Assembly (NCBI GenBank): GCA_021732995.1
Contig: JAKFWA010000118.1
Coordinates: 1 to 64,000 of the forward strand
DNA length: 64,000 nt
Direction: 5' to 3'
DNA from: Planctomycetaceae bacterium
Lineage (GTDB): Bacteria; Planctomycetota; Planctomycetia; Planctomycetales; Planctomycetaceae
The notes beneath the pieces are model-generated. The model worked only from the letters and a program-made list of their open reading frames with translations, searched no databases and was not told the origin of the DNA. Below, piece by piece: positions 41,694-47,330 of this stretch. The stretch's first letter is position 1; each line of letters starts with the position of its first letter. The position numbers and the translations under genes are program-made.

Positions 41694-41709
41694 TGGCACG
41701 CAGCCTGCC
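41694..41709 (+). promoter_or_regulatory. Sigma-54-type promoter of the Ser/Lys-repeat gene
   Basis: TGGCACG-CAGC-CTGC: exact -24 element TGGCACG, GG to GC spacing of ten bases, and a one-base departure in the -12 element (CTGC for TTGC). It lies 70 bases before the ATG at 41779. Confidence 0.55.
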
Positions 41710-41778
41710 TTTAGGTCTCTCATCAGCCGACGACGGCTGGACTTCACAAGTATCTGACAACTTCTGAGAGACTCATCC

Positions 41779-42216
41779 ATGGCCGACAACACCGCCCGTC
41801 CTGCTCGTTTCCAAATCACCCGTCTCGAAGACCGCATCGTCCCCAGTGCTCTGTGGTGGTGTGCCGGTGGTGACGATGACAACGGTTCCGACAACGGCAG
41901 CTCCAAGAAGGGCGGCAGCTCCAAGAAGAACGGTAGCTCCAAGAAGAGCAAGAGTTGCAAGAACGGGAGCTCGAAGAAACACGGTAGCTCCAAGAAGAAT
42001 GGCAGCTCCAAGAAGAACAAGAGCTGCAAGAACGGCAGCTCGAAGAAACACGGAAGCTCCAAGAAGAATGGTAGCTCGAAGAAGAGCAAGAGCTGCAAGA
42101 ACGGCAGCTCGAAGAAGCACGGCAGCTCCAAGAAACACGGGAGCTCGAAGAAGCACAATTCAAAGAAGCATGGCAGCTCGAAGAAGAAGGTCGTCTGCGG
42201 AAAAGGTAAGAAGTAA
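41779..42216 (+). CDS. LEDR-leader Ser/Lys/Cys tandem-repeat protein, candidate export substrate
   Basis: 145 residues. The N-terminus ends in FQITRLEDRIVPSALWWC, an LEDR-type motif seen at the start of many planctomycete exported proteins. After a DDDNGSDNG linker the rest is almost only Ser, Lys, Gly, Asn, His and Cys: three units of NGSSKK-S/N-KSCK followed by NGSSKKHGSSKK, then HGSSKK variants and a VVCGKGKK end. Very basic, with five cysteines and no globular character. A strong terminator follows. It lies upstream of a PqqD/M50/HlyD exporter, so it may be that system's cargo; Lys/Ser repeats resemble silaffin-type or polyanion-binding peptides only by composition. Function unknown. Confidence 0.75.
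   Translation: MADNTARPARFQITRLEDRIVPSALWWCAGGDDDNGSDNGSSKKGGSSKKNGSSKKSKSCKNGSSKKHGSSKKNGSSKKNKSCKNGSSKKHGSSKKNGSSKKSKSCKNGSSKKHGSSKKHGSSKKHNSKKHGSSKKKVVCGKGKK
41893..42189 (+). repeat. In-frame tandem repeats of the Ser/Lys protein
   Basis: The DNA repeats (AGCTCCAAGAAG core, about 69-bp higher-order unit) encode NGSSKK, HGSSKK and KSCK blocks. The complementary strand is open in several frames only because of this composition. Confidence 0.85.
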
Positions 42217-42248
42217 GTATCTGACGTTGGCCATCTGATGAAGTACTC

Positions 42249-42290
42249 AAGGCGAGCTGAGGTAACGACCTCGGCTCGCCTTTTTTTCTT
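42249..42290 (+). terminator. Terminator after the Ser/Lys-repeat gene
   Basis: Stem AAGGCGAGCTGAGGT / ACCTCGGCTCGCCTT with a 4-base loop followed by T7-C-TT. It separates the candidate substrate from the downstream genes, allowing different expression levels. Confidence 0.92.
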
Positions 42291-42544
42291 TTACACCCTT
42301 GGCACGCCCTCACTACTACTCATCTGCAGACTCCATGCGTGAGTTTCCGATCGTGCCGAGAGTATCGAACGTAAGAGTTACGCTACTTCTGTCATCGTAC
42401 GAGTTGTCGCCCGAAGGTACGATTCCACATCGCAGGAGTTTTGTGGCCTAGAGTAGGAATGGATTTTCCTGGCCAGACGCAGCAGCGGGTACGGTTCAAA
42501 GCCCGCTGTCAGCTACGTCGAAGGCCGTCTCGAGGAGTGCTGCT

Positions 42545-43021
42545 ATGCCTGCCATACAACGCAAGAACAAAGCCAAGAAGCAGGCGAAGCCTCAGAAGAA
42601 GTCAAAAGCTAAGTGCCCCCATTGCGGTGACGGCCCGCAAACATTTCGGTACATGAAGAGCATCTACCGCTTCGATATCAACAAGGCTCGGGAGATCATC
42701 AGTGATGGTCGTGAGTCGGTCGAACTCGAACCAGACGATGTGCGCTTCAGCGTTGATACCAGTCGCATTTACGAAGAGCATCTACCGCACGTTGATACAA
42801 AGTATCCCGGCATCATCGCGCATATCTGGTATCCAACGCCAGAAGGCGAAGTGCTGCATGGCCACGTTCTTGTCGACGGCCACCATCGAGCAGCTCGGTG
42901 TTTGCAGTTAGGGATTCCATTCTTTGTGCATCTGCTGTCCGAGCAGGAAAGTCGCGACGTCCTGCTGCAAGGGCCTGACATCGACACAATTCTAGAGCAG
43001 ATCGGCAAGCCTGCGTCTTAG
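42545..43021 (+). CDS. Zinc-ribbon and DGHHR-motif (ParB/Srx-like) protein
   Basis: 158 residues, GAGGAG eight bases before the ATG. A Lys-rich start (IQRKNKAKKQAKPQKKSKAK) leads to CPHCG, half of a zinc motif. The core SIYRFDINKAREIISDGRES, then VELEPDDVRFSV and VLVDGHHRAARCLQLGIPFF, resembles the ParB/sulfiredoxin-like fold, where a DGHHR motif marks the nucleotide-binding site. The fold assignment is tentative. The next gene starts nine bases after its stop, so the two are co-expressed. A modifying or regulatory role toward the exporter or its cargo is possible. Confidence 0.65.
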   Translation: MPAIQRKNKAKKQAKPQKKSKAKCPHCGDGPQTFRYMKSIYRFDINKAREIISDGRESVELEPDDVRFSVDTSRIYEEHLPHVDTKYPGIIAHIWYPTPEGEVLHGHVLVDGHHRAARCLQLGIPFFVHLLSEQESRDVLLQGPDIDTILEQIGKPAS

Positions 43022-43029
43022 AGGCCATT

Positions 43030-45465
43030 GTGTCTACCAGCACCGATACATTGCCGAGGCTCCGAGGCGACGCTGTTGTCCAACAAGTGTCGGACGAGGT
43101 GTTTGTTGTCAAACTTCCGGCCGAGCGGGAGTACTTCAGCGTTGGGCCGAGTGAAGCATTTCTGCTCCAGCAACTCGACGGCACAACAACAAATCGCTCG
43201 GTGCGGAAGGCTTTCGCCGGCAAGTTTCATGAGGAGCTTTCGCGTCAGGATATCAATGATTTCCTGGAACTGGCTGCCGCGCGCAAGCTGCTAGAACGCC
43301 CCAAAGATGCCGTAGAAGACATAAAGCCGGAACCAGATTCCCGATTTGAAGAGAACGACGACGAGCTGGAGTCCACTCGTCACCAGAGCGTTCTCTACTT
43401 TCGCAAGCAACTGTTCGATCCTAACCAGTTCTTTGGTTGGATTGAGCCCAAGCTCAGTTGGATCTGGAGTCGGTCGTTTATCGTTCTATCAAGTCTTGGA
43501 ATGCTGGCGTCGCTGCTGATTCTCATCAGCAATGCGCAGGATCTGGTCGCTTCATTCTCAGACGCCTGGCGCTGGGAAACCGTTGCGCTGGCGATGCTGA
43601 CCATTCTCATCACGACGGTCTTGCACGAGTGTGCTCATGGGCTCACCTGCAAGCATTTTGGCGGCGCAGTTCATGACACCGGTGTGTTGTTTGTACTGTT
43701 TATGCCCTGTCTCTATTGCAATGTTTCAGACGCGTGGCTGATTCCCCAGAAGTCGCGACGCTTATGGATCACCGCTGCTGGCGGCTATTGCGATCTGTGT
43801 TTGTGGGCGATGGCGGTTTGTATCTGGCGTATCACGGTCCCCAATTGTCTGATTAACTATCTGAGCTTTGTTGTGCTGTCTGTGTGTGGTACACGCGGAT
43901 TGATCAATTTCAATCCGCTGCTACGGCTGGACGGGTATTATCTTTTGAGCGACGGATTGGGCATTCCAAACCTGCGTCAACGCGGGCGTGAAGCCCTGAT
44001 GGGCAAGCTCAGATGGCTGCTGTGGGGAGCTGAAAAGCCCAAAGCCGAAGCTCACGGTCGTTTGCTGTTCACGTACGGGCTGATGACCTGGGTCTTCTCG
44101 ATCGGGTTCTTGAACGTCGTGCTGCTCAAGATGATGAAGTATGCAAGCAATCAGTTCGGCATCTTGGGTATATCGTTTACCGGCCTCTTGCTGGTCGTGG
44201 CCGTAAGGCGCGTTTTCACGGGATTCTTCAGGAGCGAGTTCATGACCATGATCAAGACCCGACACAAGCGAACGGTCGCCTGGGTGGGCGGTATTGCCGC
44301 AACCCTGGCTATGCTCTTCATAATACCGATCAAGTATTATGCAACGGGCGACTTCGTCGTTCGCCCCGGCGACTGGCATGAGGTGCATTCTCCGGTGACC
44401 GGATTCATCTCGCGAATCCTGGTAGACGAGGGGAGTCACGTGAAGGCTGGTGATCCAATCGTTCAGCTCACTTCTACGGATCTGGAAAGTCAGATTACGA
44501 CGAAAGAGGCGGAGCTGCGCGGGGTCGATGCCACGCTCGCGAAACTGAGATCAGGTACGCGTCCTGAGCAGCTCACTGCCGCCGAGGAAAAGGTCACGAG
44601 GTTGAAGAACTGGGTGAACCTCGGCCAGCAGGAAGTTGAGCGCGCGAGAAATGCGCATACGCAGGAAATCCGCGCAGTCACTCAGCGGATCGAACGGTCG
44701 AAGACTCAATGGGAGTTTGCCAAACAAAGCTATTCTGATTCAGAGCGATTGTATCAATTGAAGGCGCTCGCAGGTGCGCAGTTGAGATCGGAACAGGTGC
44801 AGCTTGCGTCGTTGGCCAGCCAGATCGAAGAAGCGGAAGCTGACCGTCGTGTGAAAGAGGCTCACGGTATTCGCAGCATTGAAGGTGAGTTGGCTCGGCG
44901 GGAACAGGAACTCGCCGATGCCGAAAGCCAGTTGGAGTTGTTGCGTGCGGGTACTCGTCCTGAAGAGATTGCGGCGGAAGCGGCTCGTCAGGACCAGTTG
45001 CAACAGCAATACAAACACTTGAAGTCACAACGCGAGAAACTGATTGTGACAGCTCCCGTGAGCGGTGTGGTTGCGACACCACGACTCAAAGAAAAGCTCG
45101 GTCAGTTGGCAACGCCCGGGTTGCCAATCTGCGTTATCGAGAACGGAGCGACCTCCAGAGCGGAGATCTCAGTTCCAGAAGACGACATGTCGGGTGTCAC
45201 GCCCGGGCAGTCGGTCGTACTCAAAGCGCGTGCGTTGCCCTTCGAGACGTTCAACGCCTCTGTCGATCGGATTGCGCCCACGGCGACGGTCCTCGCGGCA
45301 AAACAACGCAACGTGCTTGTCGTCCACTGTGACTTGAGCAACCAGGACGGTCGGTTGTGCTCAGGCATGACGGGCTTCGGGCGGGTCTTCCTCGGATATC
45401 GCTCACTCGGCAGCGTGCTGGTTTCCAAAGCACTCGGCTACCTGCGAACGGAATTCTGGTGGTAG
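43030..45465 (+). CDS. PqqD-like / M50 metalloprotease / HlyD fusion exporter
   Basis: 811 residues from a GTG with GAGG five bases upstream. Residues about 15-95 are PqqD-like (DEVFVVKLPAEREYFSVGPS, then EAFLLQQLDGTTTNRSVRKA), the fold that binds leader peptides in RiPP systems. Residues about 140-440 form a membrane site-2-protease domain with HECAHGLTCKHFGG (HExxH) and NFNPLLRLDGYYLL (second ligand motif) among about seven helices. Residues about 450-800 are a HlyD-type adaptor: lipoyl half GDWHEVHSPVTGFISRILVD, long coiled coil, second half APVSGVVATPRLKEKLGQLA. One polypeptide thus combines peptide recognition, proteolysis and periplasmic bridging. Its 3' end overlaps the convergent TolC gene by 28 bases. 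Confidence 0.88.
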   Translation: MSTSTDTLPRLRGDAVVQQVSDEVFVVKLPAEREYFSVGPSEAFLLQQLDGTTTNRSVRKAFAGKFHEELSRQDINDFLELAAARKLLERPKDAVEDIKPEPDSRFEENDDELESTRHQSVLYFRKQLFDPNQFFGWIEPKLSWIWSRSFIVLSSLGMLASLLILISNAQDLVASFSDAWRWETVALAMLTILITTVLHECAHGLTCKHFGGAVHDTGVLFVLFMPCLYCNVSDAWLIPQKSRRLWITAAGGYCDLCLWAMAVCIWRITVPNCLINYLSFVVLSVCGTRGLINFNPLLRLDGYYLLSDGLGIPNLRQRGREALMGKLRWLLWGAEKPKAEAHGRLLFTYGLMTWVFSIGFLNVVLLKMMKYASNQFGILGISFTGLLLVVAVRRVFTGFFRSEFMTMIKTRHKRTVAWVGGIAATLAMLFIIPIKYYATGDFVVRPGDWHEVHSPVTGFISRILVDEGSHVKAGDPIVQLTSTDLESQITTKEAELRGVDATLAKLRSGTRPEQLTAAEEKVTRLKNWVNLGQQEVERARNAHTQEIRAVTQRIERSKTQWEFAKQSYSDSERLYQLKALAGAQLRSEQVQLASLASQIEEAEADRRVKEAHGIRSIEGELARREQELADAESQLELLRAGTRPEEIAAEAARQDQLQQQYKHLKSQREKLIVTAPVSGVVATPRLKEKLGQLATPGLPICVIENGATSRAEISVPEDDMSGVTPGQSVVLKARALPFETFNASVDRIAPTATVLAAKQRNVLVVHCDLSNQDGRLCSGMTGFGRVFLGYRSLGSVLVSKALGYLRTEFWW

Positions 45466-47330
45466 CTGGCGCTTTGAACCGGCCCGGGTTGTCCGACCGC
45501 ATAGCCAGGGGATGGCAACGCATCTGGGCCAGCAGTGGTCTCAACTTGACCTGCTTGGGGCGGTTGAGAACCCGCGACCGAGATCTGATAGACATCCAGC
45601 AATGTGCCTTGCGCCTCATCGATGCGAGTCAACAGGATGTTGTAGTCGGCCAGGTTGCGGCTGCTTGCTGTCACAGCGTTGATCCAGGCCTGCATGGAGT
45701 TCTGGTAGTCGTACAATGCGATCAGCAGCCAGTCGTCACCGCGGTTGGCTGCGGGCGGTGCTGAGTAGCGGATTCGCGAGAGCCGCAGCCACTCTTGCGC
45801 ATGTTGCACTTGTCGAGCGGAACTCTCGTAGCTTTCCCATGTGGCCCGCAGTTCTGCCGCGAGGGACAGGAAATCAAAGGTGACCTGCTCCTCGAACCCG
45901 CGGATCAGGGCCAGTTCCCGCATCAATTGCAGTTCTGCTGCCTGCAGGTCGGCCTTGGCTCGCCGGTTTCCCAATGGCATCGAGAACTCGACGCCCAACG
46001 TCCAGTCCGTGTACTGGAATGCCGACATCTGATCGAGCGAATCGTCAAGGCGAGAGTCCAGTCCGTTCGTGCGATAGAGGGCTCGCAGGTCTAGTTGAGG
46101 CAGCACTCCGTTTTGGGCAACTACAAGCTTCCAGTCTTGCTCATCACGCCGCGCTCGCCGTCTGTTGAGATCTGGCCTTCTTTGATGAGCTGTTTGAACT
46201 AATTGTTCGATGTTCGGTTCAATTCGCGCGCCGTAGGGCATATCGACCGGCACCAGGACCGCACCATCCGAAGCCGGTAGTCCCATTAACTGCCGCATGT
46301 TGAACTCGGCTTGTCTGACCGAGAGTTCCGCTTGTGCTCGTTGTCGTCTTAATGCTTCCAGGCTAGAGCTGGCTCGAGCGACATCCGCGTAGATCGAGCG
46401 CTGTGACTGGTAACGTAGTTCTTCGATCCGGACAGTTTCCTCGACCAGAGGGAGCAATCCGTCAATGGCTTGCCAAGCAAATAGGGCCGCGTGCAGTCTC
46501 CAGTAGGCTTCCATCACGCTGCGCACCTGTGCCTGAGCTGCCTGTTGCACGTCCCATTCGGTCTGTCCTGCCCGCGCACCGGCAATTCGAATGGGAGCTG
46601 TGTTGACCTTCCATCCGGCGGCCCGGTAGAGCGGTTGGCGAACGTCTAAGACCAACGCGGATGAGTACGCTGGGTTGTAAGTGCTGGATGAGCCCTGCGG
46701 AAAAAAGAGGTAGCCCAGTGATGGTTCGTAGGCCAGGCGAGTTGTCGTGCCCCACTCCCAGAGCTTGTCTAGCCGCGTTCCGAAGTTGCCTTCGTCCCGA
46801 CGTGTGTTCGTTGAAATACCAGGGCCGAAGAAGGCGTCTGGCGGCTGATTGATCTGGCTGCCCTCGTAGTTTGCCGAGAGGCGCGGATCGAATCTGGCCT
46901 CCTCCTTCTGGATTTCTGAGCGAGCAATCGCGGTGTCGAGTGTTGTGACGGGCTCGATGCGTACAGAGCCGCTCAACGTCCGGATGAGATCGGACTTTCG
47001 CAGTGAGAGCCACAAGGCTTCCTGAAGCGCCAAGGGTCGCCGAGGACTTGTTGCCAACACAAGCGTTGGAGCTGCCGATGGTATTTGATGCGGTGGCGGT
47101 CTGGTTTCTGTAACTGCCTGAGCCGCAGATGTTTGCAGGATCGTTGACTTGGCGTTCTCGAGGTCAGCAATGGGGGCGGATGCAGCTACCGGCTCCGCAC
47201 CTTCGCCAATGTTTTCGGGCGTTTTCGAGTACTTCGCCGAGTCCAAGCCCCAAGCGCAGCCGGAGCAGGTCAGCAGCAACGCAAAGCGCGCAGCGAGACC
47301 AGACACCGGGAGTGGTCGTCTGTTTGACAT
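45438..47330 (-). CDS. TolC-type outer-membrane efflux protein (lipoprotein)
   Basis: 630 residues. Start LPVSGLAARFALLLTCSGCA has a lipobox-like LTCSGC, so it is probably lipid-anchored. Two outer-membrane efflux repeats follow a long variable region (residues about 30-130): TALRQPLY-type segment LVLDVRQPLYRAAGWKVNTA, WRLHAALFAWQAIDGLLPLV with a long helix, and the second half DWTLGVEFSMPLGNRRAKAD, typical of TolC. It faces the PqqD/M50/HlyD gene tail-to-tail and is the natural outer-membrane partner of that adaptor. Weak ribosome binding site. No ABC ATPase is adjacent. Confidence 0.88.
   Translation of the reverse strand: MSNRRPLPVSGLAARFALLLTCSGCAWGLDSAKYSKTPENIGEGAEPVAASAPIADLENAKSTILQTSAAQAVTETRPPPHQIPSAAPTLVLATSPRRPLALQEALWLSLRKSDLIRTLSGSVRIEPVTTLDTAIARSEIQKEEARFDPRLSANYEGSQINQPPDAFFGPGISTNTRRDEGNFGTRLDKLWEWGTTTRLAYEPSLGYLFFPQGSSSTYNPAYSSALVLDVRQPLYRAAGWKVNTAPIRIAGARAGQTEWDVQQAAQAQVRSVMEAYWRLHAALFAWQAIDGLLPLVEETVRIEELRYQSQRSIYADVARASSSLEALRRQRAQAELSVRQAEFNMRQLMGLPASDGAVLVPVDMPYGARIEPNIEQLVQTAHQRRPDLNRRRARRDEQDWKLVVAQNGVLPQLDLRALYRTNGLDSRLDDSLDQMSAFQYTDWTLGVEFSMPLGNRRAKADLQAAELQLMRELALIRGFEEQVTFDFLSLAAELRATWESYESSARQVQHAQEWLRLSRIRYSAPPAANRGDDWLLIALYDYQNSMQAWINAVTASSRNLADYNILLTRIDEAQGTLLDVYQISVAGSQPPQAGQVETTAGPDALPSPGYAVGQPGPVQSASYHQNSVRR

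Follow-up and report, generated by a model that had tools for sequence, protein, structure and literature searches.

A probable cassette for the maturation and export of a leader-bearing, highly basic repeat protein in a planctomycete genome

Positions 1 to 64,000 of contig JAKFWA010000118.1 from a Planctomycetaceae bacterium (assembly GCA_021732995.1) were analysed, and this whole stretch of 64,000 nucleotides is called the window. Between positions 41,694 and 47,330 the window carries four genes that probably serve, as one dedicated cassette, to mature and export a small repeat protein of strongly basic character (the cargo). The order of the parts is a sigma-54-like element, the repeat gene, a terminator, the gene of a protein with a DGHHR motif (the DGHHR protein), the gene of a PqqD-like/M50/HlyD fusion (the exporter) and a convergent TolC-family gene. 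Which genes are present, that the repeat is translated, that the leader is conserved and that the parts are inherited together are direct observations, and the pairing of cargo and exporter is supported by sequence comparison. An earlier reading of the same DNA from its letters alone (the sequence-only reading) had described these four genes and the promoter motif, and all of them were found with the coordinates and lengths that it gave. Its 145-residue repeat protein with LEDR-type leader was recovered at 41779-42216 on the + strand with the motif LEDRIVP, and its convergent TolC at 45438-47330 on the - strand. In the following list, RRE is the recognition element of ribosomally synthesized and post-translationally modified peptides (RiPPs).

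41694..41709, + strand: sigma-54-like -24/-12 element, TGGCACGCAGCCTGCC, 85 nt 5' of the ATG of the repeat gene
41779..42216, + strand: repeat cargo protein, 145 aa, K/S/G-rich with KSCK inserts, net charge +35
41779..41844, + strand: predicted leader MADNTARPARFQITRLEDRIVP, motif kept in relatives, cut after Pro22 predicted by analogy with daptides
41845..42213, + strand: predicted exported core, a short W/C/acidic stretch and then 13 GSSKK-type units
42249..42289, + strand: intrinsic terminator ending the cargo transcript, -28.5 kcal/mol, z -6.9
42545..43021, + strand: DGHHR protein, 158 aa, CPHC knuckle, VDGHHR, predicted ParB/sulfiredoxin-like fold, candidate cargo-modifying or adaptor protein
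43030..45465, + strand: fusion, 811 aa, GTG start, RRE/PqqD-like domain plus M50 site-2 protease plus HlyD-type membrane fusion protein
43069..43293, + strand: RRE/PqqD-like domain of the fusion, residues about 14-88, NF041824 match from residue 14
43390..44322, + strand: M50 site-2 protease membrane part of the fusion, residues about 121-431, HExxH at 43624-43638, NxNPxxxxDG
44326..45405, + strand: HlyD/EmrA-type periplasmic adaptor of the fusion, residues about 433-792, HlyD_D23 E 7e-18
45438..47330, - strand: TolC-family outer-membrane factor, OEP E 8e-31, convergent with the fusion

An alignment of seven DGHHR proteins was searched against the genome contigs of relatives and gave 32 loci, and the exporter was present at 26 of them (L068-L092, L098). 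The others were not counted as cassettes: L093 has a DGHHR gene on a 5.9-kb contig with no exporter, and L094-L097 and L099 are distant acidobacterial loci with no exporter. Together with the own genome and G190, G207 and G101, the 26 loci made 30 genomes with both genes. Twenty-three of these 30 were found to have a Gly/Ser/Lys/His/Cys repeat protein, in 22 cases on a cassette contig. Seventeen genomes have the cargo gene 5' of the DGHHR gene on the same strand (L082 with its 3' part only, the contig starting inside the repeat). It lies between the DGHHR gene and the exporter in L076, directly after the DGHHR gene in L089, and beyond TolC in L068, L073 and L074 (its 3' part, the rest being lost at the contig end). 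For L069 (= G258) it is on a separate contig. The sequence-only reading had named the repeat protein as the cargo of the fusion and had held that lack of co-occurrence in relatives would count against this; the co-occurrence found here and the codon evidence of translation given below both support the cargo role.

A census of the class covered exporter, DGHHR gene and leader. An exporter ortholog (E<=1e-100) was found in 19 of 297 genomes (the matches in G141, G187 and G209 cover only residues 95, 117 and 118 onward, respectively), and the DGHHR gene (E<=1e-10) was found in 17 of the 297, all within these 19 and none among the 278 class genomes lacking the exporter (Fisher p 9e-26, not corrected for relatedness). 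The DGHHR marker is spread over 16 of the 155 genera of the class sample, and Limnoglobus roseus and Adhaeretor mobilis are named species that also have the gene. A DNA pattern for the leader matched 45 of the 297 genomes, and its backward-read control matched 16, so part of the exporter-less genomes with the pattern are chance matches. The pattern was present in 15 of the 19 exporter genomes and 30 of the 278 others (Fisher p 1e-10). The species are related, so both p values are optimistic.

The repeat gene is translated, since the GSSKK units differ only synonymously: comparison of the 13 units of the window gene with each other gave a proportion of synonymous differences (pS) of 0.53 and of nonsynonymous differences (pN) of 0.00. 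The sequence-only reading had regarded an untranslated repeat gene as fatal to its proposal, and these codons argue for the opposite. For the leaders, 16 distinct sequences from the own and related genomes gave pS 0.63 and pN 0.21 (L087 was dropped, its leader being identical to that of L085). The leader motif [TEV][RK]LE[DE]R[IV][VAT]P is nearly constant across relatives as the repeat varies, and the leader block reads FxITRLEDRIVPS or a near variant despite wholly different repeats. The core types among relatives are GSSKK, GGSNKC, GKGHS, GGSHK and GGKS, core length ranges from 44 to 226 residues, and the last residue of the cargo may be K, C, W, P, S or H. The window repeat protein matched no family of Pfam or NCBIfam, and a Sec-type hydrophobic stretch was not found in the cargo (maximum 15-residue Kyte-Doolittle mean 0.42).

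Two further LEDR proteins were seen near these genes or in the same genome. The own genome has a second LEDRIVP protein of GSSKK type at the end of contig C9 (L105:9098-9360), where the contig stops inside the repeat, and this copy is unlinked to the exporter. The cassette of G032 contains another LEDRVAP protein (L076:10547-11236, - strand), which is divergent and not low-complexity, and its frame overlaps the upstream end of the repeat cargo frame.

The family scan (Pfam) covered seven window proteins, the four of the cassette and three neighbours. With the fusion it gave a PqqD-like match at residues 29-88 (E 0.012) and an M50-like match (E 0.008), both below cut-off, with HExxH at residues 199-203, and a HlyD_D23 match at residues 450-780. 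The daptide RRE/site-2 protease model NF041824 aligned with residues 14-401 of the fusion on model positions 6-374 of 379 (E 1e-59). All 25 exporter orthologs matched this model at E<=1e-5, and 21 of them matched the epipeptide protease model LiaK/YydH at the same threshold; Pfam M50 was matched by 25/25 at E<=0.1, HlyD_D23 by 25/25, and PqqD by 14/25 at E<=0.1 (best 1.5e-5). The RRE part is predicted to fold as beta-beta-beta-helix-helix-helix, and eight hydrophobic 19-mers lie between residues 145 and 432. H199, E200, H203, N293, N295, P296, D301 and G302 are invariant in the 25 orthologs, so with both the HExxH and the second M50 motif kept, the protease of the fusion is probably active. 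Structure comparison (VIA) of residues 427-798 gave EmrA (4tko) as the best row (Z 19.2, root-mean-square deviation (rmsd) 12.6, 318 residues aligned). By analogy with daptides, reading and cutting of the leader by the fusion are likely: to judge from the homology to the daptide model and the shared leader spacing, the leader would dock on the RRE domain and be cut behind Pro22. A TolC homolog is linked in 20 of the 26 exporter loci, and the window TolC-family protein, which the sequence-only reading had called a lipoprotein, has a hydrophobic N-terminus. The tails of the fusion gene and the TolC gene overlap by 28 bp. The fusion ends in YLRTEFWW (window 45430-45465), of which R806, E808, F809 and W810 are invariant in the 25 orthologs.

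The sigma-54-like promoter that the sequence-only reading had assigned to the repeat gene was found again. The -24/-12 element, TGGCACG-N4-CTGC starting at window position 41694, was scored with home-made weights, as were the sites of relatives, and was equalled by 0.3% of 1,960 random 200-nt background segments (fraction 0.003). A site at fraction <=0.03 was found for 8 of 16 cargo genes (combined p 5e-9), and the 21 DGHHR genes scored gave no sigma-54 signal (p 0.95). The own genome has one RpoN. A terminator-like stem lies 3' of 13 of 18 cargo genes from the own and related genomes (L077 stands outside this count, its gene having been missed by the motif of the script). With a strong intrinsic terminator directly 3' of it, the repeat gene is probably a separate transcript, and a cargo with its own promoter and terminator fits a product required in greater amounts than its exporter.

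The DGHHR protein was described as a zinc protein in the sequence-only reading. The 158-aa length and the VDGHHR motif held, but zinc is backed by one CxxC only, which differs in L091 and L092, and we rejected a plain zinc protein in favour of a predicted ParB/sulfiredoxin-like fold, which suits better. The AlphaFold2 model has a pLDDT (predicted local distance difference test) of 88. In VIA its best row was sulfiredoxin (Z 5.8, rmsd 4.5, 91 aligned), with the free serine kinase SerK at Z 4.8 (rmsd 3.8, 90 aligned, 21% identity) and ParB at Z 4.1 (rmsd 3.3, 71 aligned), and the 32 rows are mostly ParB/Srx-type entries. Foldseek alone gave nothing below E 0.05 with this model, a PDB sequence search with the DGHHR profile gave nothing useful, and Pfam gave chance-level matches only; the VIA comparison alone was consistent. 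DG[HN]HR is kept in 32 homologs, with D111, G112, H114 and R115 invariant, and GxxR is the type by which the P motif is defined in the portion of PMC12704722 that was available. The DGHHR protein may be a cargo kinase, another modifying enzyme or a nucleotide-controlled chaperone. Relatives of the DGHHR protein also occur elsewhere. The acidobacterial DGNHR proteins mentioned above have 26-32% identity and a CPRCPVIG motif, and the neighbours at L094 resemble conjugation-type genes as judged by eye. Gemmataceae SSF1 has a second DGHHR gene directly 5' of a 797-aa LEDRITP protein (L093:931-3831) on the short contig without exporter.

Fusions paralogous to the exporter served as a contrast. They have about 30% identity, mostly over residues 10-500, and are found in 57 of 59 relatives (match E<=1e-36), G002 and G004 having weak matches only. 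Among 18 paralog neighbourhoods (L102-L104, L107-L121; L105 and L106 are not fusion neighbourhoods and were excluded), most of 14 to 19 kb and L117 of 11 kb, none held a LE[DE]R[IV][VA]P repeat protein, so the paralogous fusions were rejected as carriers of the same cargo. L116 has the start of a giant LEPRVVLT protein, and low-complexity frames of other kinds were seen at L109, L111 and L120. The leader pattern occurs in 30 exporter-less genomes, of which 24 were read (22 at one locus each, plus G275 and G222; outside this set are G005, G033, G110, G152, G264 and G289), and a repeat tail was found in none of the 24. At these loci the pattern falls in part in coincidental frames and in part at the N-terminus of long proteins that are not repeats. 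We therefore rejected the idea that the leader is exclusive to this exporter, for which it is no private address. Two genomes (n = 2) hint at two separate pairings, of the leader with the exporter and of the Ser/Lys repeat with the DGHHR protein. In G194 (L188:2089-5129; L206), which has exporter and TolC but lacks a DGHHR gene, the adjacent protein bears a LEDRIAP leader and is of another kind than the Ser/Lys repeats; the other genome is G265, described below. In the Gemmataceae, G161 and G187 have nine and six leader-pattern matches, respectively (L170-L173, L175-L179); of the 10 read, eight are close to the start of a frame (390-2864 aa) and two fall in short frames.

No ABC exporter was among the seven window proteins scanned, and none was sought elsewhere in the genome, so the claim of the sequence-only reading that the product leaves without an ABC ATPase is unproven, and an ATPase acting in trans is possible. 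The own genome has four SecA_DEAD genes with open frames of 1191, 652, 648 and 745 aa, the three short ones being classed as secondary by length alone, and none of the four is on the cassette contig C19. HlyD/M50 loci with a secondary SecA were proposed in 2015 as an ABC-less system resembling type I, in which SecA proteins would power the HlyD/M50 systems and the M50 membrane parts may form a pore (Kamneva et al. 2015, PMC4452313, available portion). The short SecA gene on C54 (L217:64-14002) adjoins a HlyD-like gene and has a giant with LEERVLM within 3 kb, and that on C21 (L214, L215) has giants with LETRQVL and LEQRLVL within 5 and 9 kb; no LExR giant was flagged around the C8 copy. SecA genes near LExR giants are at most suggestive of a wider LExR pathway.

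In the mechanism that we propose, an RpoN-type promoter would give a short transcript of the cargo only. The leader RFQITRLEDRIVP would dock on the RRE/PqqD-like domain of the fusion, the site-2 protease of which would cut after the LEDRIVP motif. Before export the DGHHR protein, the fold of which is predicted to be like that of nucleotide-binding proteins of ParB/sulfiredoxin type, may act on the Ser/Lys repeat, for example as a modifying enzyme or a holding factor. The HlyD part of the fusion and the neighbouring TolC, going by their families, would then take the core across the periplasm and the outer membrane, and a secondary SecA in trans is the candidate for inner-membrane passage and energy.

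Several results weigh against a dedicated cassette of this kind. Seven of the 30 genomes with DGHHR gene and exporter have no cargo (L075, L078, L080, L081, L083, L098, G101). In six of the seven the contig ends before at least one site where the cargo lies in others, and in several assemblies contigs break inside the repeat itself, but L081 is a clean absence, with 10 kb on each side without cargo or TolC. A TolC match is missing at 6 of the 26 exporter loci; the contig ends there in L071, L080 and L098, and it continues in L081, L089 and L090. G265 has the exporter with neither a DGHHR gene nor a linked cargo, and long proteins other than repeats also start with the leader motif in genomes that have no ortholog of this exporter. 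Half of the cargo genes (8/16) have no convincing sigma-54 site. In the sequence-only reading the PqqD part recognises the leader and the protease cuts it; homology to the daptide enzyme backs this by analogy, but the fusion reaches 202.6 bits on NF041824 and the curated cut-off is 300. The ParB-like match of the DGHHR protein is weak (Z below 6). SerK acts on serine as a free amino acid and does not phosphorylate it within peptides, according to the available portion of PMC5120207, so a cargo kinase role is kept as speculation only. Among the cassette genes none was seen for energy coupling or for translocation across the inner membrane.

Other explanations of the same genes were weighed against the dedicated cassette. 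The repeat protein might be a cytoplasmic polycation, for example one that binds the nucleoid or RNA, and simply stand beside an unrelated efflux or RiPP exporter. Its net charge and its Lys/Ser repeats would suit nucleic-acid binding, and its own promoter and terminator set it apart from the exporter transcript. But the 22 linked cases come from many genera and several gene orders, and the conserved part is the leader, which long non-repeat proteins share and for which a nucleoid protein would have no need; this explanation is improbable. Still less probable is that a few planctomycete lineages merely inherited the linkage from a common ancestor, without the genes being tied in function. Eleven of the 17 DGHHR-bearing class genomes belong to one family and the association tests carry no phylogenetic correction, yet the linkage survives rearrangement, with the cargo before the DGHHR gene, between it and the exporter, after it or beyond TolC, while the cores diverge widely and the identity of exporter orthologs falls to 36%.

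Two explanations keep the link between leader and fusion. The cargo could be a true RiPP precursor, the core of which is modified by the DGHHR protein into a bioactive peptide and then cut and exported by the fusion, as in daptides or epipeptides; modification is common at Ser, Lys, Cys and His. The RRE, the site-2 protease, the precursor-like leader and the matches of most orthologs to LiaK/YydH point this way, but a core of such variable length is closer to a structural polymer than to an antibiotic, and no known RiPP-modifying family was among the seven window proteins scanned, the flanks in relatives being outside that scan; we consider a RiPP unlikely, though worth keeping in mind. The fusion could also be a general exporter of all LEDR-leader proteins, with the repeat protein only its nearest-encoded client, which would suit the unlinked LEDRIVP repeat protein on C9 and the several LEDR proteins per Gemmataceae genome. 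This is doubtful as well: the ortholog is restricted to so few class genomes, yet long LEDR-type proteins exist where it is absent, and those would need the paralogous fusions. The dedicated cassette thus stays as the probable reading.

Many planctomycete proteins carry a LEDR-type N-terminus, and the substrate of the HlyD-M50 exporters was unknown in the available portion of the 2015 study (PMC4452313). The cassette offers a matched leader-tagged cargo and exporter. With cargo and exporter as a matched pair, and a DGHHR marker in 16 genera and in named species, the substrate question becomes testable. If the reading is true, RiPP-style leader reading would be extended from small peptides to secreted structural polymers, and reading, cutting and conduit would be united in one polypeptide. 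A wider scheme, which is speculative and more easily wrong than right, is a LE[DE]R-leader pathway without ABC proteins, in which the RREs of the fusions would read the leader, the site-2 protease would remove it at the membrane, a secondary SecA would push, and the adaptor and TolC would form the conduit. Paralogs would serve giant surface proteins and this ortholog Ser/Lys-rich polymers, and the DGHHR protein would put charges on the serines (e.g. phosphate beside the lysine pairs). The secreted product would then be zwitterionic and like a silaffin, and would act as a matrix, an adhesive or a material that binds mineral. Diatom silaffins have paired Ser and paired Lys in basic repeats, and the likeness of the cargo to them is one of composition only, with no homology.

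The three scanned neighbours outside the cassette belong to other families, namely a PSCyt2/PSD1 protein, an exo/endonuclease-phosphatase and a lactonase.

Among known systems, the leader is reminiscent of PF07595 (Planc_extracel), a LEDR-type motif at the N-terminus of extracellular proteins of planctomycetes, which giants of the own genome carry as LEDRRML, LEDRALL and LEPRQLL. But those giants have [ML]L where the cargo leader has [VA]P, the cargo is not in the PF07595 list of the own genome, and its N-terminus gave no match to the hidden Markov model (HMM) of the family at E<=10, so membership was rejected. The DGHHR protein has the GxxR-type P motif, as DG[HN]HR, of the ParB/sulfiredoxin fold proteins (SerK, SbnI, Srx, ParB) and by prediction may have their fold, and unlike them it has a CPHC knuckle and no convincing Pfam or PDB sequence match. 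Type I secretion systems combine an ABC protein, HlyD and TolC, and their cargo signal is C-terminal. The cassette has their adaptor and outer-membrane factor families, but its cargo has an N-terminal leader and no ABC exporter was seen in it, and it is not shown to be a type I system.

The literature consulted, as far as the papers were available, contained no paper joining a LEDR leader or a PqqD-M50-HlyD fusion to a planctomycete cargo, and the nearest work is PMC4452313. The loci of Kamneva et al. combine HlyD and M50 proteins, sometimes with OEP, and no ABC protein was proposed for them; unlike them, the window cassette has no adjacent SecA gene and adds the cargo and the DGHHR gene. The available portion of that paper names no substrate or leader and has no occurrence of PqqD. 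In daptides an RRE is fused to a site-2 protease, and the leader ELExMEAP is removed by that peptidase with a cut directly after the motif (PMC10036551, PMC12338566, available portions). The window fusion is like the daptide enzyme (DapP/MpaP, NF041824) in its RRE/PqqD-like domain and intramembrane HExxH, and in both cases short precursors with a conserved leader are co-encoded. The window leader R-L-E-D-R-I-V-P keeps the daptide spacing of L, E and [VAT]-P (LExxx[AV]P), as far as the available portions give it. A daptide system was nevertheless ruled out, given the below-cut-off score, the lack of precursors with ELExMEAP and a C-terminal Thr, and the fact that no daptide-modifying enzymes were seen: an aminotransferase, alcohol dehydrogenase, methyltransferase or DUF-RRE was not among the seven window proteins scanned, the flanks of relatives lying outside the HMM scan. 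Unlike daptide precursors, the core is a long Ser/Lys/Gly repeat without C-terminal Thr, and unlike the daptide enzyme, the fusion carries HlyD at its C-terminus beside a neighbouring TolC. As read here, the cassette is a new variant in which a leader is handled in the manner of RiPPs and a repeat polymer is the client of a three-part export conduit.

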